DNA of 64,000 bases, taken from NCBI GenBank assembly GCA_027482225.1, contig JAIXWD010000006.1:124001-188000 (forward strand), given 5' to 3'. Shown one piece after another: positions 4,955 through 32,191 of this stretch. The stretch's first letter is position 1; each line of letters starts with the position of its first letter. The position numbers were made by a program, and so were the translations under genes. This stretch comes from Bacteroidota bacterium (GTDB lineage Bacteria > Bacteroidota > Bacteroidia > UKL13-3). The notes below the pieces were generated by a model. The model searched no databases. It saw nothing but the letters and a program-made list of their open reading frames with translations, and was not told the origin of the DNA.

Positions 4955-6286
4955 CTATAACTTCACTAGCTCACCTGTTAACCTCAATAATTCGGTTTCG
5001 TTTATTTGTGCTTCATATTGGGCGTTTAGTAATCGGATTTGGCTGTTTAGTAAGTTTAGTTGTGCATCGCGCAACTCAATACTGGTAATCACCCCAACTT
5101 TATATTGCTCGTTGGCTATATCTAAGTTTTCTTTCGCAACTTTTTCGTTCTCTTTTTCAAATGAAATTAACTGTATACTCAACAAATAATTGTTGTAGGC
5201 ATGTTGCACTTGGTTTTGTAAACGGGTTAAAGAGTCTTTATAAATTAACTCATTCGATTTTAAATATAAACGTGCATTTTGTAAACGTTGCTTTACATCA
5301 AAACCATTATATAAATTAATACTTAAACCTGCTCCGTAATGAAAACCATTATTTTGTGCCGATTGTAAAAATCCAGCTTCAGATTGTTGGCGATTATAGT
5401 TATAACCACTTCTTAGCTGTATGCTTGGCATACGTTCGGCTTCAATTTCTTTCACACTTAATAAACTAATTTGTTGATTTTTTTTCGTAATCATTAAGTT
5501 GGTGTTTTGTCCATTTATTTTATTAAGTAAATCATCCAATTTATATGTTTTAGGTTCGGGTATATTTTCTGATATCGTATAGCTCACATTCAAATCTCTA
5601 CCCAATAATTGGTTTAAATTGGTTAGTGTATTTTTGTAATTGTTTTCTTGACGCATTAATTCTGCTTTATCGGTATTTAAATCAACCTGCGCTTTTAACA
5701 TTTCTGTTTTAGCACTTTTACCTGCTTTATATTTTTCAGCAGCAAGTTCTAATCTTTTTTCGCTGATTTTAAATGCATCTCGGTTTGAAGCAAGCTGTTG
5801 TTTGGCCAACAATACATCATAATATGCTTTGGTAACACGCATAAAAATTTGCTCAATATTACTGCGCATTTTTAGCTCACCCACTTGTTGTAATTCTTCC
5901 AAGCGGTTTTTAGCAGCAAACATTTTAAAGCCATCAAAAATAGTCCAGCCTAATTCTATGTTTGCATTTAAGTTATTACTTTTGGCACCATCACGGTTGT
6001 TTTCTGCTCCACTTAAAAACTTTTGTCGGGTATCTATAACTTGGTTGTCTTGGTTAATTGTACCTGTTACTGTAGGTAACATCCCTGCAGCTCCTAGTCT
6101 ATTGTTATTGGAGTTAATTGCTGCATCATTTTTAGCTACTTGAATGGCATAGTTGTTTTCTAATGCCATTTTTAATGCTTCACTTAATGTAAGTACTTGC
6201 TGGGCCGAAATGTTGCTAATACTGAATATTAACGCAAGTAAAAAGTTCAAGTGTTTAATTTGTTTATATCTACTAATCAAATTCAT
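4955..6286 (-). CDS. TolC-family outer-membrane efflux protein
   Basis: The 443-residue protein has a signal peptide (cut near ISAQQ) followed by the TolC/OEP pattern: LSEALKMALENNYAI at the start of the first repeat, long alpha-helical coiled-coil segments, and a second repeat after about residue 220 (EKENEKVAKENLDIANEQYKVG). It would form the trimeric outer-membrane channel of the tripartite pump encoded immediately upstream. It is the last gene of the marR-adaptor-RND-tolC run, separated from the RND gene by 70 bp that contain a CACAG-type repeat. The family is clear. The exported substrate is not predictable. Confidence 0.9.
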   Translation of the reverse strand: MNLISRYKQIKHLNFLLALIFSISNISAQQVLTLSEALKMALENNYAIQVAKNDAAINSNNNRLGAAGMLPTVTGTINQDNQVIDTRQKFLSGAENNRDGAKSNNLNANIELGWTIFDGFKMFAAKNRLEELQQVGELKMRSNIEQIFMRVTKAYYDVLLAKQQLASNRDAFKISEKRLELAAEKYKAGKSAKTEMLKAQVDLNTDKAELMRQENNYKNTLTNLNQLLGRDLNVSYTISENIPEPKTYKLDDLLNKINGQNTNLMITKKNQQISLLSVKEIEAERMPSIQLRSGYNYNRQQSEAGFLQSAQNNGFHYGAGLSINLYNGFDVKQRLQNARLYLKSNELIYKDSLTRLQNQVQHAYNNYLLSIQLISFEKENEKVAKENLDIANEQYKVGVITSIELRDAQLNLLNSQIRLLNAQYEAQINETELLRLTGELVKL

Positions 6287-6356: not shown

Positions 6357-9300
6357 TTAGTTTTCATCATTAGCTGCGTACATTTTTTCGCGGATGTTAC
6401 CAAGTGATAAAAAACTGTAAACAGCAGGGATAACATACAAGGTTAAAAATCCTGAGAAAACCAATCCACCAATAATTACAATACCCAACGATATGCGACT
6501 AGTAGCTGCATCTCCAAGCGCTAGCGCAATTGGTAGTGCACCTAATATAGTTGCTAAACTTGTCATTAAAATTGGGCGTAACCTTGAAACGGCAGCTTGT
6601 TGAACTGCTTCTATTTTACTTAAGCCTTCTTCTCGTTTTTTATTGGCAAATTCAACTATTAAAATCCCATTTTTAGTTACCAAACCAAGTAATACAATAA
6701 TTCCAATCTGACTAAAAATGTTCAAGGTTTGATCAAAATACCAAAGTGAAATTAAAGCCCCTGCCAATGCCATTGGAACAGTAAGCATAATGATAATTGG
6801 GTCAATAAAACTTTCGAATTGTGCCGCTAACACTAAATACACCAATATCAAAGCAAATAAAAACGCAAAAGTTGTATTTGATGAACTTTCAGAGAAGTCG
6901 CGTGATGGACCACTTAAATCTGTAGTAAATGATTCATCTAAAACTTTTTCTTTAATTGCATCCATTGCTTTTATTCCATCACCAATCGTTTTTCCTGGTG
7001 CTAACCCTGCAGTAACTGTAGCAGATTTATACCTATTATAATGGTATAATTGTGGTGGACTGCTTTGTTCAACAACATTAACAACGGCATCTAGTTGAAT
7101 TAATTCGCCTTTGTCATTCCTAACATATAACGATTTCAAATCCATTGGCTCATCACGATTTTCTCTGTTAACCTGTCCAATTACTTGGTATTGTTTTCCT
7201 TTCATGCTAAAGTAACCATAACGTATTCCACCGTAGGTAAGCTGTAATGTTTGTGCAATTTGTTGAACGCTAATTCCAACTGCTTTTGCCTTTTCTCTAT
7301 CAATTTCAATAACCAATTCGGGCCTATTAAATTTGAGGTTCACATCCATACCTTGGAAGGTGGGATTTTTATTTGCCTCATCCAAAAACTTAGGTAAAAA
7401 TTCTTGTAGTTTACTGAAATCTTGGTTTTGTAAAATATATTGTACCGGTAATCCAGCACGTGATCCTCCGCTACCATTTATGGTTTGATCTTGAATAACA
7501 AATGACCGAGCTTCTGTCATGCTGCCTACCGTTTTTTGGATAGATTGTGCAATTTGTTGTTGTGAGCGATTGCGCTCGTTAGGTTCTGTTAAAAATATAC
7601 GTGTAAAACCAGTATTTACCGCACCACTTCCAATAAAACCTGGCGCTACTACGGATAGTAAAACATGTTTCTCTGGTGTTGAATCAATAACCATTTGCGC
7701 AACCCTATCCATGTAGTTTTCCATGTATTCGTATGATGCTCCTTCAGGCGCAGTGGAAGCAATGCGCATGACACTTCTATCTTCTAATGGAGCTAATTCG
7801 GATTGTATAGTTGAACCAATTAAAAATATTACTCCAACAGATGCGATTACAATTACTATAGACCACCATCTTTTTTTCATGAACTTTCGTAAGGAGTTGT
7901 TGTAGACGTTATTTAAACCAACAAAAAATGGTTCAGTTAAAACGTAAAATTTAGAATGCTTATGGTTTTTACGCTGCAGTTTTACATTGAGCATGGGGGT
8001 TAATGATAGGGATACAAATGCCGATATTAAAACTGCTCCTGCAACTACAACACCAAATTCACGGAATAACCTTCCAACAAAACCATCTAAGAATATGATG
8101 GGTAAAAACACCACCGCTAAGGTGATTGAAGTGGAAAGTACAGCAAAGAAAATTTCGTTAGAGCCCTTAATGGCCGCTTCGCGTGGACTCATACCTTCTT
8201 CCATTTTTTTAAAAATGTTTTCAGTTACTACAATGCCATCATCAACCACCAAACCAGTAGCAAGTACAATTGCCAATAGGGTTAAAATATTAATGGAGAA
8301 TCCAAAAATGTACATGATAAAAAATGCACCAATTAATGAAACTGGAATATCAATTAATGGGCGGAATGCAATAAGCCAATCACGGAAAAACAGGTAGATG
8401 ATAAGTACCACCAATAAAAATGCAATCAATAATGTTTCGCCAACTTCGGTAATTGACTTGCGAATAAATTTGGTATTATCTAATGCAATATCCAATTTAA
8501 TATCATCAGGAACATCATTTTTAATTTGATCGTATCTGCGGTAAAATTCATCGGCAATATCAATGTAATTTGCACCTGGTTGAGGTACTAAAGCTAAGCC
8601 AATCATGGGTACTTTGCTTTCTTTCAGGATGGTTTGTTCGTTTTCTGCACCTAAAATGGCATAACCAATATCTCGTAGTCGAATGGTTTTATTGTTTACT
8701 GATTGAATGATGATGTTGTTAAATTCCTCTTCGGTAGAAAACCGCCCAACTGTTTTTACGGATAACTCCGTATTGTTCCCTTCAATTTTACCACCTGGCA
8801 ACTCTACATTTTCTCGTTCTAATGCCAATTTAACATCTAGTGGAGTTAATTTAAAAGATGACAGTTTTATTGGGTCGAGCCACAAACGCATGGCATAACG
8901 TTTTTGCCCCCAAATTTGTATTGTACTTACACCTGGTATGGTTTGCAATTTTTCCAATAAAACATTCTCGGCATAATCGTTTACTTCTAAATGCTTTTTG
9001 GTTGTGCTTTGCACAGTAAGTGTTAAAATCGCATCAGAGTTAGCATCCGCTTTTGCCACAACTGGTGGAGCATCAATATCCTGAGGCAATTGCCTTACTG
9101 CTTGTGAAACTTTATCACGCACATCATTCGTTGCTGCTTCTAAATCTTCACTTAAGCCAAACTCAACTGTAATTACACTACTACCTTGATTACTTGCCGA
9201 TGAAATGGAACGAATACCTGCTATGCCGTTTATAGCTTTTTCTAATGGCTCGGTAATTTGCGATTCGATAATATCCGGATTCGCACCCGTGTAATTGGTT

Positions 9301-9443
9301 CTTACTGTAATAACAGGTGGGTCAATAGAAGGGTACTCGCGTACACCCAAAAAATTAAATGCAATGGCTCCAAAAAGCAAAATGATAATTGACATTACTG
9401 TTGCTAATACAGGCCTATTTATACTTGTTGTACTTAAACTCAT
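6357..9443 (-). CDS. RND efflux transporter permease (HAE1/AcrB family)
   Basis: The 1028-residue length is normal for the HAE1 family. It begins MSLSTTSINRPVLATVMSII (TM1), followed by the conserved periplasmic start REYPSIDPPVITV. TM4 carries the proton-relay aspartate pair in ATGLVVDDGIVVTENI, with the GSNEIFFAVLSTSITL segment after it. The second half repeats the architecture and contains LVTKNGILIVEFAN and RLRPILMTSLATILGALP. It is a proton-driven inner-membrane pump for drugs, dyes or other amphiphiles, assembled with the adaptor (9534-10577) and TolC (4955-6286) proteins. The gap to the adaptor gene is 90 bp. The MarR gene heading the run suggests induction by a small molecule. Confidence 0.95.
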   Translation of the reverse strand: MSLSTTSINRPVLATVMSIIILLFGAIAFNFLGVREYPSIDPPVITVRTNYTGANPDIIESQITEPLEKAINGIAGIRSISSASNQGSSVITVEFGLSEDLEAATNDVRDKVSQAVRQLPQDIDAPPVVAKADANSDAILTLTVQSTTKKHLEVNDYAENVLLEKLQTIPGVSTIQIWGQKRYAMRLWLDPIKLSSFKLTPLDVKLALERENVELPGGKIEGNNTELSVKTVGRFSTEEEFNNIIIQSVNNKTIRLRDIGYAILGAENEQTILKESKVPMIGLALVPQPGANYIDIADEFYRRYDQIKNDVPDDIKLDIALDNTKFIRKSITEVGETLLIAFLLVVLIIYLFFRDWLIAFRPLIDIPVSLIGAFFIMYIFGFSINILTLLAIVLATGLVVDDGIVVTENIFKKMEEGMSPREAAIKGSNEIFFAVLSTSITLAVVFLPIIFLDGFVGRLFREFGVVVAGAVLISAFVSLSLTPMLNVKLQRKNHKHSKFYVLTEPFFVGLNNVYNNSLRKFMKKRWWSIVIVIASVGVIFLIGSTIQSELAPLEDRSVMRIASTAPEGASYEYMENYMDRVAQMVIDSTPEKHVLLSVVAPGFIGSGAVNTGFTRIFLTEPNERNRSQQQIAQSIQKTVGSMTEARSFVIQDQTINGSGGSRAGLPVQYILQNQDFSKLQEFLPKFLDEANKNPTFQGMDVNLKFNRPELVIEIDREKAKAVGISVQQIAQTLQLTYGGIRYGYFSMKGKQYQVIGQVNRENRDEPMDLKSLYVRNDKGELIQLDAVVNVVEQSSPPQLYHYNRYKSATVTAGLAPGKTIGDGIKAMDAIKEKVLDESFTTDLSGPSRDFSESSSNTTFAFLFALILVYLVLAAQFESFIDPIIIMLTVPMALAGALISLWYFDQTLNIFSQIGIIVLLGLVTKNGILIVEFANKKREEGLSKIEAVQQAAVSRLRPILMTSLATILGALPIALALGDAATSRISLGIVIIGGLVFSGFLTLYVIPAVYSFLSLGNIREKMYAANDEN

Positions 9444-9533: not shown

Positions 9534-10577
9534 TTAACGCCTTATTTTAGCACCATTACGTAAATACATTACTCCCTCAACTACTACTTCATCTCCAGCT
9601 TTTAAGCCTTCCGTTACTTCAATTACATCATCTTTACGTACGCCTGTTTTTACTTTACGTTCTATAACACTATCGCCTTGTGCAACATATACTTTTTGTC
9701 CTTTTAAAATTGGTACAATAGCTTGAGTTGGTATCAAATAAGCATTTGTGTTTGTTGATGCAACTATTGATACTTTAGCAAAAGATCCTGGCAAAATTTC
9801 TTGTTTAGGATTAGCACAGATGGCACGCATAATTACGTTTCGTGTTACGTCATCAATTTTTGGTTCTATAGCATAAATTTTTGCCTGCAGTTGTTTTTTA
9901 CCTTCTGTAGTAAACAAGACGATACTTCCTTTTTGTATTGTGTTAGCATATTTTTCAGGCACAGAAAATTCTACTTTAATTTGATTAATATTTTGTAACG
10001 CAGCAATTCGAGTTGTTGGTGTTACATAACTGCCTTCACTAATGTTTCGTAATCCTATTACTCCATTAAATGGTGCCCTTATTTCTGTTTTTCTTATTTG
10101 TTCTTTTAATAAATCTATATCAGCATTTATACTGCTTAATTCAGTAGAGGCAATGTCATATAATTCATTACTTATTGCTCCCTTTTCTAATAAAGTTTTA
10201 TTTCGCTTTTCTGTGTCTTCTTTAAGTTTTTTTGTAGCCGTTGCTTTTTTAAGTTGAGCTTGTAAATCGCTGTCGTTTATTTTTAAAAGTAGTTCTCCCT
10301 TTTTTACTTGTGCACCTTCTGCGAAGTTAATTTTAACAATTCTTCCTTGCGTTTCTGGGTATAGCACCACTTCTTCATCTGCCATTATGTTTCCAGTTGT
10401 TTCTATTTTTCTTTCACTTGCCATTTGTTCAACCAATAATGTATTTACCTTAGTGGGTATGTTTTTTTTGCTTGCGTTAGGTGCTTGTACATTTTGATTC
10501 GGTTTTAGTTTAGGCCAAGCCAATAAGCCTAAAATAACCACTCCGAAAATTATGTAAATGATATCCTTCTTTTTCAT
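9534..10577 (-). CDS. RND efflux periplasmic adaptor (HlyD/MexH-like membrane fusion protein)
   Basis: The protein has 347 residues. An N-terminal membrane anchor (IIYIIFGVVILGLLAW) is followed by a lipoyl/biotinyl half-motif (GRIVKINFAEGAQVKKGELL), then a short helical hairpin. The second lipoyl half (EIRAPFNGVIGLRNISEGSYV) and beta-barrel and membrane-proximal domains ending in GLKAGDEVVVEG come next. It bridges the RND pump and the outer-membrane channel. It starts 2 bp after the marR stop, so the two are almost certainly co-transcribed and probably translationally coupled. There is no lipobox, so it is probably anchored by the N-terminal helix. Confidence 0.93.
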   Translation of the reverse strand: MKKKDIIYIIFGVVILGLLAWPKLKPNQNVQAPNASKKNIPTKVNTLLVEQMASERKIETTGNIMADEEVVLYPETQGRIVKINFAEGAQVKKGELLLKINDSDLQAQLKKATATKKLKEDTEKRNKTLLEKGAISNELYDIASTELSSINADIDLLKEQIRKTEIRAPFNGVIGLRNISEGSYVTPTTRIAALQNINQIKVEFSVPEKYANTIQKGSIVLFTTEGKKQLQAKIYAIEPKIDDVTRNVIMRAICANPKQEILPGSFAKVSIVASTNTNAYLIPTQAIVPILKGQKVYVAQGDSVIERKVKTGVRKDDVIEVTEGLKAGDEVVVEGVMYLRNGAKIRR

Positions 10578-10579
10578 AG

Positions 10580-11068
10580 CTATTTATTTTTTTGTACCGA
10601 TATGTTACTTGTTACATCGGATAAATTGTTATCCATCCTATTCATCAATTCTATAAATATTTTTTTTTCCTCAGCACTAAACCCGTTAAAAGCTAATCTG
10701 TTTAGTTGACTAAATGTGGTTTCAATTTTGGGTGCCAACTTGATGCCTTTTGAAGTTGCAGATATAAGGTATGCTCTTCTATCTTCATTATGTGGGTTCC
10801 TTTTTACAAGGTCTTTTTCTGTAAGGTAATCTATTATTCTAACCATAGTAGCCTTGTCTATTTGTAAACAGTTAGCCAAGCATTGTTGTGTTATTTCTTG
10901 ATGTTTACAAATCAATCCCAATACATAAAAATAGCGGTCTAAATCAGTATCACATAATTCTTGTTCTGCAGCATGATCATACTTTTTATACAGCATGTTA
11001 AACAGCAAACTCAATGGGCTCTCTTTCGACTCGAACGGATTTATCTTGTTTTTTTGAGTTGGTAACAT
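10580..11068 (-). CDS. MarR-family transcriptional regulator of the efflux operon
   Basis: This is a winged-helix MarR protein of 162 residues. The core includes LGLICKHQEITQQCLANCL and the recognition segment DKATMVRIIDYLTEKDLVKR, followed by the wing NPHNEDRRAYLISATSKG, all typical of the family. The ORF stays open to a TTG at 11110, but that codon lies inside a palindrome. The ATG at 11068 gives the normal MarR length and sits 4 nt after a TATGTTTG box, so I chose it. The inverted repeat at 11093-11115 is the expected operator. The regulator probably represses its own operon, and a ligand (possibly a pump substrate) would release it. Confidence 0.88.
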   Translation of the reverse strand: MLPTQKNKINPFESKESPLSLLFNMLYKKYDHAAEQELCDTDLDRYFYVLGLICKHQEITQQCLANCLQIDKATMVRIIDYLTEKDLVKRNPHNEDRRAYLISATSKGIKLAPKIETTFSQLNRLAFNGFSAEEKKIFIELMNRMDNNLSDVTSNISVQKNK

Positions 11069-11072
11069 TTTG

Positions 11073-11080
11073 CAAACATA
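11073..11080 (-). promoter_or_regulatory. -7 box of the marR-efflux operon
   Basis: The minus strand reads TATGTTTG, a full match to the Bacteroidota -7 consensus TAnnTTTG. Only 4 nt separate it from the ATG at 11068, implying a leaderless or nearly leaderless mRNA. No good -33 TTG is found at the usual distance. Confidence 0.45.
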
Positions 11081-11092
11081 ATTGAAAATGCA

Positions 11093-11115
11093 AATAGTTG
11101 ATAAAATCAACTATT
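11093..11115. promoter_or_regulatory. MarR-type operator: perfect 10-bp inverted repeat
   Basis: The arms AATAGTTGAT and ATCAACTATT are perfectly complementary and are separated by AAA, giving a 23-bp dyad. Size, symmetry and AT-rich centre match MarR-family sites. It lies 13 bp upstream of the marR -7 box, where a dimer would block RNA polymerase. It is also 98 bp upstream of mnmE, which reads the other way. Confidence 0.7.
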
Positions 11116-11189
11116 GTAATGATATGAGTTTTACATAAGTGGTTAACCAAATGGATTAATCCTAAGTATAAATCAACCGTTGTTTATAT

Positions 11190-11197
11190 TACATTTG
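11190..11197 (+). promoter_or_regulatory. -7 box of mnmE
   Basis: TACATTTG matches TAnnTTTG. It ends 15 nt before the mnmE ATG at 11213. No convincing -33 element is visible. Confidence 0.45.
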
Positions 11198-11212
11198 TGG
11201 CACTAAATAAAT

Positions 11213-12583
11213 ATGTCGTACTACATTAATCAAGATTTAAATGATACCATTTGTGCACTGGCTACAGCCGGTGGAGTAGGAGCAATAGGCGTAATACGCG
11301 TTAGTGGTGCAGAAGCAATTACATTAGTTGAGGCTATTTTTAAAGGAAAACGTTTAACCCAACAATCCACGCATACCGTTCATTTTGGTAAAATAGTTGA
11401 TGGTGATAAAGTGATTGATGAAGTACTAGCAACACTTTTTATTAATCCAAAATCATATACAGGCGAAAATACAATTGAGTTAAGTTGCCATGGCTCGCCA
11501 TATATACAACAACAAATTTTACAATTATTGGTAAGTAAAGGTTGCCGTTTAGCTAAACCGGGTGAGTTTACCTTGCGTGCTTTTTTAAACAAAAAACTCG
11601 ACTTATCACAGGCAGAAGCTGTGGCGGATTTAATAGCTAGTAACAGTGAAGAAAGTCACCGTACAGCCATGATGCAAATGCGTGGTGGCTTTAGTTACCA
11701 AATTGCTGATATGCGTGAGCGCCTCATTAATTTTGCCTCTTTGATTGAGTTGGAGTTAGACTTTGCCGAGGAAGATTTAGAATTTGCCAAGCGAGACGAT
11801 CTCATCACATTAGTTAGCAACATACAGCATCTTATACAAGAACTGTTGCACTCCTTTAAATATGGCAATGCCATTAAAAATGGCATACCAACTGTAATTG
11901 CAGGTAAACCCAATGCCGGAAAATCAACATTGTTAAATGCTTTGGTAAACGAAGAGCGTGCTATAGTTAGTGATATTGCTGGTACTACACGCGATACCAT
12001 TGAAGAAGCATTTGTGATTGATGGCATAACTTTTAGGTTAACAGATACGGCTGGAATACGTAGCAATTCGCAAGATAAAATTGAAGTAATAGGAATTGAG
12101 CGTACGTTTGATAAACTGCAAAAGGCCAGTATAATAATTTATGTGTACGATGCTGCAACAACTACAACAGAAGAATTAAGTAATGAGTTGGCACAGTTTG
12201 ATGCTATTCATGCAATTGTTATTCCTGTTGCCAATAAAATAGACTTAACCACCACACCACTTATACCCAATGCGCAAACCATTTCGCTTTCGGCTAAAGA
12301 CAAAACTGGCATTGAAGTTTTAAAACAAAGGTTAATAGAAACCGTGCGCAAAGACCAAGTTAAAAACGATGTTATTATTACCAACCTACGCCATTACGAA
12401 GCGCTGCAACATGCTAACGAATTTTTGCAATTGGTGCTTAATGGTATAGATATGCAAATTACAGGCGAGTTGTTGGCGTTTGATATTCGTAAAGCATTGT
12501 TTCATTTGGGTGAAATTACAGGCGATGTTACAACTGATGATTTATTGGCGAATATTTTTAGTAAGTTTTGTATCGGAAAGTAA
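11213..12583 (+). CDS. mnmE: tRNA modification GTPase MnmE
   Basis: With MnmG, MnmE installs the 5-carboxymethylaminomethyl group on wobble uridine 34 of certain tRNAs, using methylene-tetrahydrofolate. The 456-residue length is normal. The N-terminal folate-binding domain starts NDTICALATAGGVGAIGVIRVSG. The inserted G domain has the P-loop GKPNAGKST (about residues 234-242), TTRD, DTAG and NKID. The C-terminus ends in the conserved FCIGK with its catalytic-region Cys. The gene stands alone on the plus strand, diverging from the efflux operon; mnmG is not in the window. Confidence 0.97.
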   Translation: MSYYINQDLNDTICALATAGGVGAIGVIRVSGAEAITLVEAIFKGKRLTQQSTHTVHFGKIVDGDKVIDEVLATLFINPKSYTGENTIELSCHGSPYIQQQILQLLVSKGCRLAKPGEFTLRAFLNKKLDLSQAEAVADLIASNSEESHRTAMMQMRGGFSYQIADMRERLINFASLIELELDFAEEDLEFAKRDDLITLVSNIQHLIQELLHSFKYGNAIKNGIPTVIAGKPNAGKSTLLNALVNEERAIVSDIAGTTRDTIEEAFVIDGITFRLTDTAGIRSNSQDKIEVIGIERTFDKLQKASIIIYVYDAATTTTEELSNELAQFDAIHAIVIPVANKIDLTTTPLIPNAQTISLSAKDKTGIEVLKQRLIETVRKDQVKNDVIITNLRHYEALQHANEFLQLVLNGIDMQITGELLAFDIRKALFHLGEITGDVTTDDLLANIFSKFCIGK

Positions 12584-13939: not shown

Positions 13940-14170
13940 TTGCAACCAAACCCCGAAATATTAAAAAGTTTAGTATTAACAAAAATGCCTTTTGGTAAAC
14001 ACGCAGGTTGGTTAATATCCGATTTGCCTGTAAGTTATTTAGAATGGTTTGCTCGTAAAGGTTTTCCGCAAGGTAAGCTTGGAATGCAACTGCAAACCGT
14101 TTATGAAATTAAAATAAATGGCTTGGAAAATATCATTATCGATTTAAAAAAGTTAGTGAAAGCTAATTAA
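13940..14170 (+). CDS. DUF3820 family protein
   Basis: This 76-residue protein has the DUF3820 core MPFGKHAGWLISDLP, followed by YLEWFARKGFPQGKLG and a C-terminal YEIKINGLE segment. The function is unknown; relatives were annotated as quorum-sensing-regulated virulence factors. No ATG lies upstream of the conserved core. The family usually has about a dozen residues before MPFGK, which favours the TTG at 13940 over the internal ATG at 13985. Its last 8 bp overlap the convergent gene on the minus strand. Confidence 0.75.
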   Translation: MQPNPEILKSLVLTKMPFGKHAGWLISDLPVSYLEWFARKGFPQGKLGMQLQTVYEIKINGLENIIIDLKKLVKAN

Positions 14171-15554
14171 GTGGTTCAAAAAATATGTGTGTGAATTTCC
14201 ACCAATCTTCATCGTTTTTTAAGGTAACCATAAATCGGTGTTTTATTCTATGCTTACCTTTAATTGGGTTTTTAAATGCAACGTATCCTCGGGCTTTTAC
14301 ATTTTCTTTTAATTCATCAAATTTTAAAGTTTCGGTTTCATAACCTAAAACAATTTCAGGATTGTGGGTTAAGTGAAATCTATTCACTGCATTTTTAAAA
14401 TCAATAAAGGTCGCTTTTTCATCATTCAGCATAAAATTATCAGTTTCAAAATGCGGTTTAAGTGTATCTAAATCACCTTCTTCATCAAACATAATATTTA
14501 CTAGCATATTAATTGTTCCTGTAATTGCTATTTCGTGATTTGGATGAAATTCTTCGTAAATAAAATGATTAATGAAACCTGGTATTCGCATATCAGAAAT
14601 CATTTTTTCCATTAACTCATCAGTTAAAAATTGATATATTATTTGTGGTGAATATTCGCCAATAAAATCAACTATAATATTGTGCTTACCAAGTAGCTTT
14701 ACCACACGTTTTATTTCAGCGGCTAACTTAAGCTCTGTTATCGAGTTTGTAGGTTTAAACGTAGGTTTACCTAATAACTCAAATACTGTTGTTTCCTTAG
14801 CTGTTCTAATATGTTGTTCAAAAGCACTCATGTGCTTTAAAAACTCATTTTCTATAAACAATGGTAGCTTGTTCTTATCATCTTCCTCATTTAAACTAAT
14901 TGGTTTACCGAACTTTTGTTCCAAATCCATTTTAAGCATTTGGTTCTGCATATGTAACTCCTCCTCATTTGTTAAACCCAATTTGTTTAACTTACTTGGT
15001 TTTATTATTTCTTGTTCTTTACTAAGTTCAAAGGCTGGCAAATAGGGGTCGTTACCATGTATGTAATTGTTCCACCAAGATGATGGCGAAAAATAATTTT
15101 TGCCATAGCTAAATAGCATATTCAATACAACATTTTCTTCTACATCTAAATCAATATCTAGGTAGGTTTGTGTCATATCAAACCGATTACGTGCGTTTGC
15201 TATAATTTGATTTATGTGTGCTAGTGTGCTTCGGCTTTTGGTTGTTGATATTGCTTCAATATTTAAAGTAGCTTCTTTGAGTTGCGTGATAAGCGCATGA
15301 GGAAATGAAGAACGAGTTAATAAATTATTTAAACGAAGTGTGAATCTATTGAAAGTTTGTTTGATACTTTTACCTTCAGTAAAAACAGTAAGTAAACTTT
15401 TACTATGTATATAAGCCAAAAAGTATTTACCCTTGTATCCTGATGATATGAGCGTGACGTACCATTCGTTCAGGTTGTTTATTTGCAGCTCGGTATTTTT
15501 CTGCGGTTTAATTCTATTAGTGGTTAATACTTTTTTTGTGGCTCTAATAATCAT
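14163..15554 (-). CDS. Unknown protein, DUF6933-like N-terminus plus C-terminal alpha/beta region
   Basis: I do not recognise the 463-residue protein as a named gene. The first about 140 residues resemble DUF6933: an MIIRATKKV start, a W-containing LNEWYVTLISS segment, and TTKSRSTLAHINQI near the end. An Asp/Glu-rich segment and a charged helical stretch (about residues 190-260) follow. The C-terminal half (KLAAEIKRVVKLLGKHNII, IYEEFHPNHE, DWWKFTHIFFEPLN) has an NTF2-like look, but this is weak. There is no signal peptide or membrane segment, so the protein is probably cytoplasmic. It is monocistronic and convergent with the DUF3820 gene. Confidence 0.6.
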   Translation of the reverse strand: MIIRATKKVLTTNRIKPQKNTELQINNLNEWYVTLISSGYKGKYFLAYIHSKSLLTVFTEGKSIKQTFNRFTLRLNNLLTRSSFPHALITQLKEATLNIEAISTTKSRSTLAHINQIIANARNRFDMTQTYLDIDLDVEENVVLNMLFSYGKNYFSPSSWWNNYIHGNDPYLPAFELSKEQEIIKPSKLNKLGLTNEEELHMQNQMLKMDLEQKFGKPISLNEEDDKNKLPLFIENEFLKHMSAFEQHIRTAKETTVFELLGKPTFKPTNSITELKLAAEIKRVVKLLGKHNIIVDFIGEYSPQIIYQFLTDELMEKMISDMRIPGFINHFIYEEFHPNHEIAITGTINMLVNIMFDEEGDLDTLKPHFETDNFMLNDEKATFIDFKNAVNRFHLTHNPEIVLGYETETLKFDELKENVKARGYVAFKNPIKGKHRIKHRFMVTLKNDEDWWKFTHIFFEPLN

Positions 15555-23263: not shown

Positions 23264-23323
23264 TTTAAAATTTCAAATTAAGCAATTTGAAATTAATCAT
23301 TATCACTTAGAAAAAATTCATCC

Positions 23324-32162: not shown

Positions 32163-32191
32163 ATAAAGACGCATCAATAGTGCGTCTTTAT
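32163..32191 (+). terminator. Hairpin terminator after the acyl-CoA dehydrogenase gene
   Basis: ATAAAGACGCA and TGCGTCTTTAT form a perfect 11-bp stem around TCAATAG. The T tract after it is short, so efficiency is uncertain. Confidence 0.6.

Follow-up and report, generated by a model that had tools for sequence, protein, structure and literature searches.

A conserved palindrome at the promoter of a Bacteroidota marR-RND efflux operon is a probable site of MarR autorepression

Introduction

Which regulator, and which gene, does a perfect palindrome serve when it lies between a drug-efflux operon and a divergent tRNA-modification gene? This question is raised by a locus of a Bacteroidota bacterium (assembly GCA_027482225.1) in which a dyad separates an RND efflux operon, headed by a marR gene, from mnmE. 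We examined the dyad in its own genome, in related marR loci of the family and the class, and in relation to the predicted promoters on both of its sides, and compared the arrangement with MarR-family systems described in other bacteria.

Results

On the minus strand of the window (the whole 64-kb stretch of DNA that was analysed), a MarR-family repressor of 162 aa is encoded by marR at 10580-11068 (Pfam MarR_2 (PF12802), 7.5e-11, 42.5 bits against a cut-off of 27). Three efflux genes are adjacent to marR and co-directional with it: hlyD, encoding an RND periplasmic adaptor (9534-10577; TIGR01730, 7e-78), lies 2 nt beyond the marR stop and is followed by an acrB-type RND permease gene (6357-9443; PF00873, 7e-288) and a tolC-type outer-membrane channel gene (OEP/TolC; 4955-6286; PF02321, 5.4e-59). 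On the plus strand, the divergent neighbour is mnmE, which encodes a tRNA-modification GTPase (11213-12583; TIGR00450, 3.4e-117). In addition, a 463-aa protein encoded at 14163-15554 has an N-terminal DUF6933 domain (residues 2-158) followed by approximately 300 residues without a Pfam match.

The dyad, designated operator site 1, occupies 11093-11115 and consists of AATAGTTGAT-AAA-ATCAACTATT, with 10-bp perfect arms and a 3-bp spacer; within it lies a 19-bp conserved core, TAGTTGA-N5-TCAACTA (11095-11113). When the sequence was re-read, the sequence-only reading proved exact in placing a dyad with such arms upstream of a marR-headed RND operon. The mechanical list of open reading frames begins marR at TTG 11110, within the dyad. 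The true start is likely ATG 11068 (codon at 11066-11068, minus strand), because a predicted -7 box lies between the two starts and close relatives retain the homologous ATG; with this start, the dyad would therefore be upstream of marR and not inside the gene.

Allowing up to three mismatches, the dyad occurs once in the window, and a match was found in 2 of 100 shuffles (mean 0.02). These 64 kb contain three distinct examples of a perfect dyad with 10 bp or more per arm and a spacer of 0-8, so the one at 11093-11115 is, taken alone, unusual and not unique; the other two lie at 23269-23294 and 32163-32191. In the whole genome of 2.72 Mb, the core AGTTGATNNNATCAACT has a single exact occurrence, and the searches that tolerated mismatches gave no excess over reversed controls: 29 places per strand against 32 for AGTTGATNNNATCAACT with up to two mismatches, 183 against 401 for TAGTT-N9-AACTA with up to one, and 4 places against 12 for the composite promoter-operator module with up to three. 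Seven other near-matches were checked in context, a check that excluded, for example, the one-mismatch places on C18 and C24; five of the seven fall within open frames 80 codons or longer, and for the remaining two (L003 and L137) no frame was reported by a script that skips frames running off the stretch. A genome-wide regulon, considered as a candidate, was rejected, as the core has no second exact copy and the mismatch searches fell below their reversed controls. From these near-matches, checked in part, the regulon looks local.

The family-level search recovered the MarR protein at E ≤1e-10 in 22 of 64 genomes, and an order-level search returned the same tally, again with 64 genomes. All 22 family loci carry hlyD downstream of marR, and 21 carry acrB; the locus L015 ends shortly past hlyD. 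The pattern TAGTT-N9-AACTA scores 10/10 upstream of marR in every one of them (22/22), and the exact TAGTTGA-N5-TCAACTA is present in 13, the inner bases varying in the rest (for example, TAGTTTAC...GTAAACTA in L011). The sequence-only reading had named as evidence against an operator that close relatives might retain the marR-efflux arrangement yet lack the dyad; this was looked for and not seen, with the core retained in 22 of 22 family loci.

The class-level search covered 395 genomes, 85 of which had a MarR match at E ≤1e-10, at 90 places in total. Five of these places belong to the family itself; of the other 85, 66 loci (26 + 40) were scored first and the 19 weakest or unlisted were scored later. 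The first set thus comprised 88 loci (22 + 66), and the operon count was restricted to the 75 with hlyD downstream, excluding 13 without a downstream hlyD match in the stretch. A site scoring at least 9/10 was found in 60 of these 75 operon loci, as compared with a mean of 1.61 in dinucleotide shuffles, and a site scoring 10/10 in 47, as compared with 0.07. The pattern had been derived from the family loci, so the 53 operon loci of other families are independent of its derivation; here, at least 9/10 was reached in 38 and 10/10 in 25. It had been suggested that the same dyad be sought upstream of related marR genes, and the presence of its core in 22/22 family loci and 38/53 of the first operon loci from other families supports the operator reading. 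All 15 of the 75 operon loci that score below 9 lie outside the family (15/53). Among the later, weaker places, 18 of 19 gave a tblastn match (L161 gave none, and for L146 the scan took in a longer region), with a site of at least 9 in 5 of 11 operon loci and in 7 of 18 overall; pooling both sets gives 65 of 86 operon loci. Counted over the whole first set, sites of at least 9 are present at 67 of 88 loci (7 without an hlyD match), representing 18 of the 22 families sampled and 28 of 35 genera.

The recognition helix of MarR varies with the presence of this site. Val76 occurs at 64 of the 67 loci with the site versus 7 of the 21 without it. Where TAGTT-N9-AACTA is missing, a different recognition helix is commoner (for example, RDKVSTMRMVDYL), and several of these loci carry sites such as GTTACATTTGTAAC; some low-scoring loci look like members of a different operator class. 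In this comparison, made without a tree, the sequences can be read as operator and helix changing together. As for covariation between inner bases and the recognition helix, loci with G at column 5 tend to have Ala following DK (15/20), a pattern that is suggestive and confounded by ancestry. Nine marR loci from other families (L099, L106, L109, L110, L121, L149, L153, L155 and L157) appear to have a different operator, resembling GGTTNCATTTGNAACC or GTTACATTTGTAAC; their recognition helix differs where inspected, and this may represent a specificity switch.

These observations bear on the idea that the operon is controlled at the dyad by some other regulator, MarR-type or unrelated, and not by the encoded MarR. 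The genome does contain three further MarR_2-like matches, one of them below the family cut-off. However, the site accompanies this type of marR across 18 families, and the loci without it more often differ in their recognition helix, as self-recognition predicts; control by another regulator is thus very unlikely, and the encoded MarR is the favoured binding partner of the dyad.

The position of the dyad relative to the predicted promoter supports its reading as an operator. In Bacteroidota, the -7 element is described as TAnnTTTG (PMC6847099; PMC9723704), and a predicted marR -7 box that corresponds to this consensus, TATGTTTG, lies at 11073-11080 on the minus strand, 19 nt from the start of the AACTA of site 1. 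A third, degenerate half-site, TCAATTA, is found on the same strand at 11079-11085, in direct orientation with the right arm and 16 nt downstream of it on the marR strand. This arrangement recurs in the relatives. Counted from the first base of the site AACTA, TAnnTTTG begins at exactly +19 in 41 of the 67 sites, and no other offset between 0 and 59 accounts for more than 3. An extra AACTA is found at exactly +16 in 45 of 67, and no other offset between 8 and 44 accounts for more than 1. The promoter geometry is fixed in about two thirds of the sites, the AACTA of the third half-site overlapping the -7 box and merging with it. In the dyad spacer, columns 9-11 read TTG in 22 of 67 sites and the mirror CAA in 3, which suggests that the -33 element is located in the spacer in part of the loci. 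In the present genome these columns read TTA, the third half-site is TCAATTA, and the marR -7 box carries G at a position where this base is reported to be all but absent from F. johnsoniae promoters (PMC6847099). Thus, the palindromic site overlaps the predicted promoter and is kept together with the regulator gene, and the placement of a repressor site on a predicted core promoter supports autorepression by occlusion of RNA polymerase.

Single loci such as L012 and L016 gave rise to the idea of a complete second dimer site 16 bp downstream. This candidate was rejected as a general feature: palindromy at a shift of 16 amounts to 2.67 of 7 pairs, within the 1.15-3.52 of 7 pairs observed across shifts 4-33. 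Since a second dimer site at +16 lacks support, the third half-site might in part belong to the promoter. The same may hold for part of its signal because the mnmE promoters of L046-L048 read AACTAT ahead of TTTTG; in a small control on the 64-kb window, AAC preceded TAnnTTTG at none of 8 boxes, with the marR box itself counted.

The distance from the -7 box to the transcription start is given as 4-5 nt (PMC6847099). As 4 nt separate the predicted -7 box from ATG 11068, the marR mRNA is predicted to be leaderless and to begin at this ATG, with its first nucleotide at 11068 or 11067. Of the 41 loci whose box at +19 is perfect, 10 show the same 4-nt spacing to an in-frame ATG. Within the genus, the spacing is found at 6 of 8 loci, provided that the second ATG is used for L007 (ATGATG); the exceptions are L011, which has no such ATG, and L022, in which the spacing is 7 nt. 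Leaderless mRNAs are reported to make up 5.5% in F. psychrophilum (PMC9723704), and a leaderless marR start is therefore uncommon and not new.

Perfect arms can also pair in RNA, and the dyad might accordingly be regarded as a hairpin or terminator. Its position argues against this, since it lies upstream of the predicted start on the marR strand and would not be transcribed from that promoter. Moreover, the dyad is A+T-rich, and the relatives vary its inner bases and keep the 5-bp outer arms at one spacing, as protein sites do. We consider a role in RNA extremely improbable and retain the reading as an operator.

The remaining question is whether the dyad also acts on mnmE. The start codons of marR and mnmE are divergent and 144 bp apart, and the sequence-only reading had raised the possibility that the dyad also influences mnmE. 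On this view, a MarR bound at the dyad would lower or raise mnmE transcription and so couple drug sensing to tRNA modification. The comparison did not sustain this part of the reading: the site tracks marR, not mnmE, and it lies clear of the predicted mnmE promoter, whose -7 box (TACATTTG, 11190-11197, plus strand) is approximately 75 bp from the dyad edge and would place the mnmE transcription start near 11202-11203. Within the 1.5 kb or less covered on either side, just 5 of the 22 family loci have mnmE next to marR (L005-L009); in L018 the two genes are about 1.4 kb apart. Among the best 30 of 62 places with mnmE, the site is present in all 4 upstream regions that adjoin marR and, at 9/10 or better, in none of the 26 without an adjacent marR.

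What favours a shared operator is an 11-nt block in the mnmE promoter, ATAAATCAACC (11168-11178, plus strand), which contains an ATCAAC half-site and does not vary among the 5 species in which marR and mnmE are divergent. In the 110 nt upstream of mnmE at the 26 loci without an adjacent marR, the best match to this block has 2 mismatches, and ATCAAC was found on neither strand (0/26). However, the half-site stands alone. The idea that the mnmE promoter carries a full MarR site was discarded, as inspection by eye showed no GTTGA-like inverted partner at 5-bp spacing in any of the 5 species, and the block may be mere core promoter common to close species. The mnmE link therefore appears weak, and a shared operator is in our judgement very unlikely.

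Discussion

The dyad at 11093-11115 is, with high probability, the main operator of the MarR encoded downstream of it, at which marR and the efflux pump would be repressed until a ligand intervenes. The proposal that it is a MarR operator that probably mediates autorepression is well supported by comparison, namely by the conservation within and beyond the family, by the promoter geometry and by the likeness to MexR PII discussed below. From these comparisons we infer the following course of binding, repression and induction. A MarR dimer would bind TAGTTGA-N5-TCAACTA over the -33 region of the predicted marR-hlyD-acrB(-tolC) promoter, and the extra half-site would extend the site into the -7 box. 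The bound MarR would then block RNA polymerase and thereby repress its own gene together with the pump, and a drug or a metabolite may act as the ligand that releases it.

The closest parallel in site architecture is MexR of Pseudomonas aeruginosa (mexR-mexAB-oprM; sites PI and PII), which is likewise a MarR-family repressor of an RND pump and has GTTGA inverted repeats over its promoter, with a 5-bp spacer in PII. The PII duplex of P. aeruginosa is given as ...TTAGTTGACCTTATCAACC... (PMC9892617), and this core is nearly identical to the family sites; the models of the same authors are consistent with a palindromic GTTGA to which each monomer binds, in two consecutive major grooves (PMC9892617). 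The corresponding inverted repeat, GTTGA-N5-TCAAC, is present here at 11095-11113. There are also differences. Each of the two MexR sites comprises a GTTGA pair, whereas the present locus has one full dyad and one extra half-site; unlike in the MexR system, marR here is the first gene of the operon, and the promoter belongs to the Bacteroidota -33/-7 type. In a comparison of MarR relatives made among solved structures, MexR is not the closest relative, its entries 3mex (approximately 8e-4) and 1lnw (E 8.4e-4) standing in rows 45 and 46 of 47 PDB sequences. Because other MarR structures are closer to the protein in sequence than MexR is, the shared site would reflect a common MarR-family recognition mode or convergence and is not evidence of MexR orthology.

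Other MarR-family systems share the logic of self-repression and differ in the site. MepR of Staphylococcus aureus, which controls a MATE pump, is likewise a self-repressing efflux regulator of this family. The mepR and mepA promoters are described as carrying GTTAG motifs (PMC3617543), and the MepR half-site thus differs from that found here. In the marRAB system of Mycobacterium smegmatis, the MarR protein Ms6508 binds one palindrome at its own promoter, with 10-bp arms and a 1-bp spacer, and its authors report having found no other genomic target (PMC4143341); this system differs from the present one in its ABC transporters and in its motif.

The recurrence of the promoter geometry leads us to put forward, tentatively, a broader possibility: TAGTT-N9-AACTA-N11-AACTAnnTTTG may be a single module that drives most Bacteroidia marR-RND operons of this MarR type. 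The site would be built into a sigma-A promoter, with the -33 element in the dyad spacer and the -7 element fused to the third half-site, and would be held by the dimer together with a half-site contact. Some lineages would have a leaderless marR, and the half-site block of mnmE might weakly co-regulate that gene in 5 species.

In the literature searched, by title and abstract and with most subscription journals outside its scope, no description of a Bacteroidota operator of this kind was found. A link to tRNA modification would matter if true; beyond the lone half-site block in the mnmE promoter, this comparison does not support it.

In summary, the site is real and widely conserved, and it is very probably there that the drug-pump repressor shuts off its own operon. 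The locus represents the usual type of MarR autorepressor module, and much of the class shares its neat promoter architecture. As the biology follows the standard scheme of MarR autorepression, the result is of use as annotation and adds no new principle. It provides many Bacteroidota efflux operons, a large group, with an operator that can be tested, and it predicts the promoter bases that would set basal pump expression.
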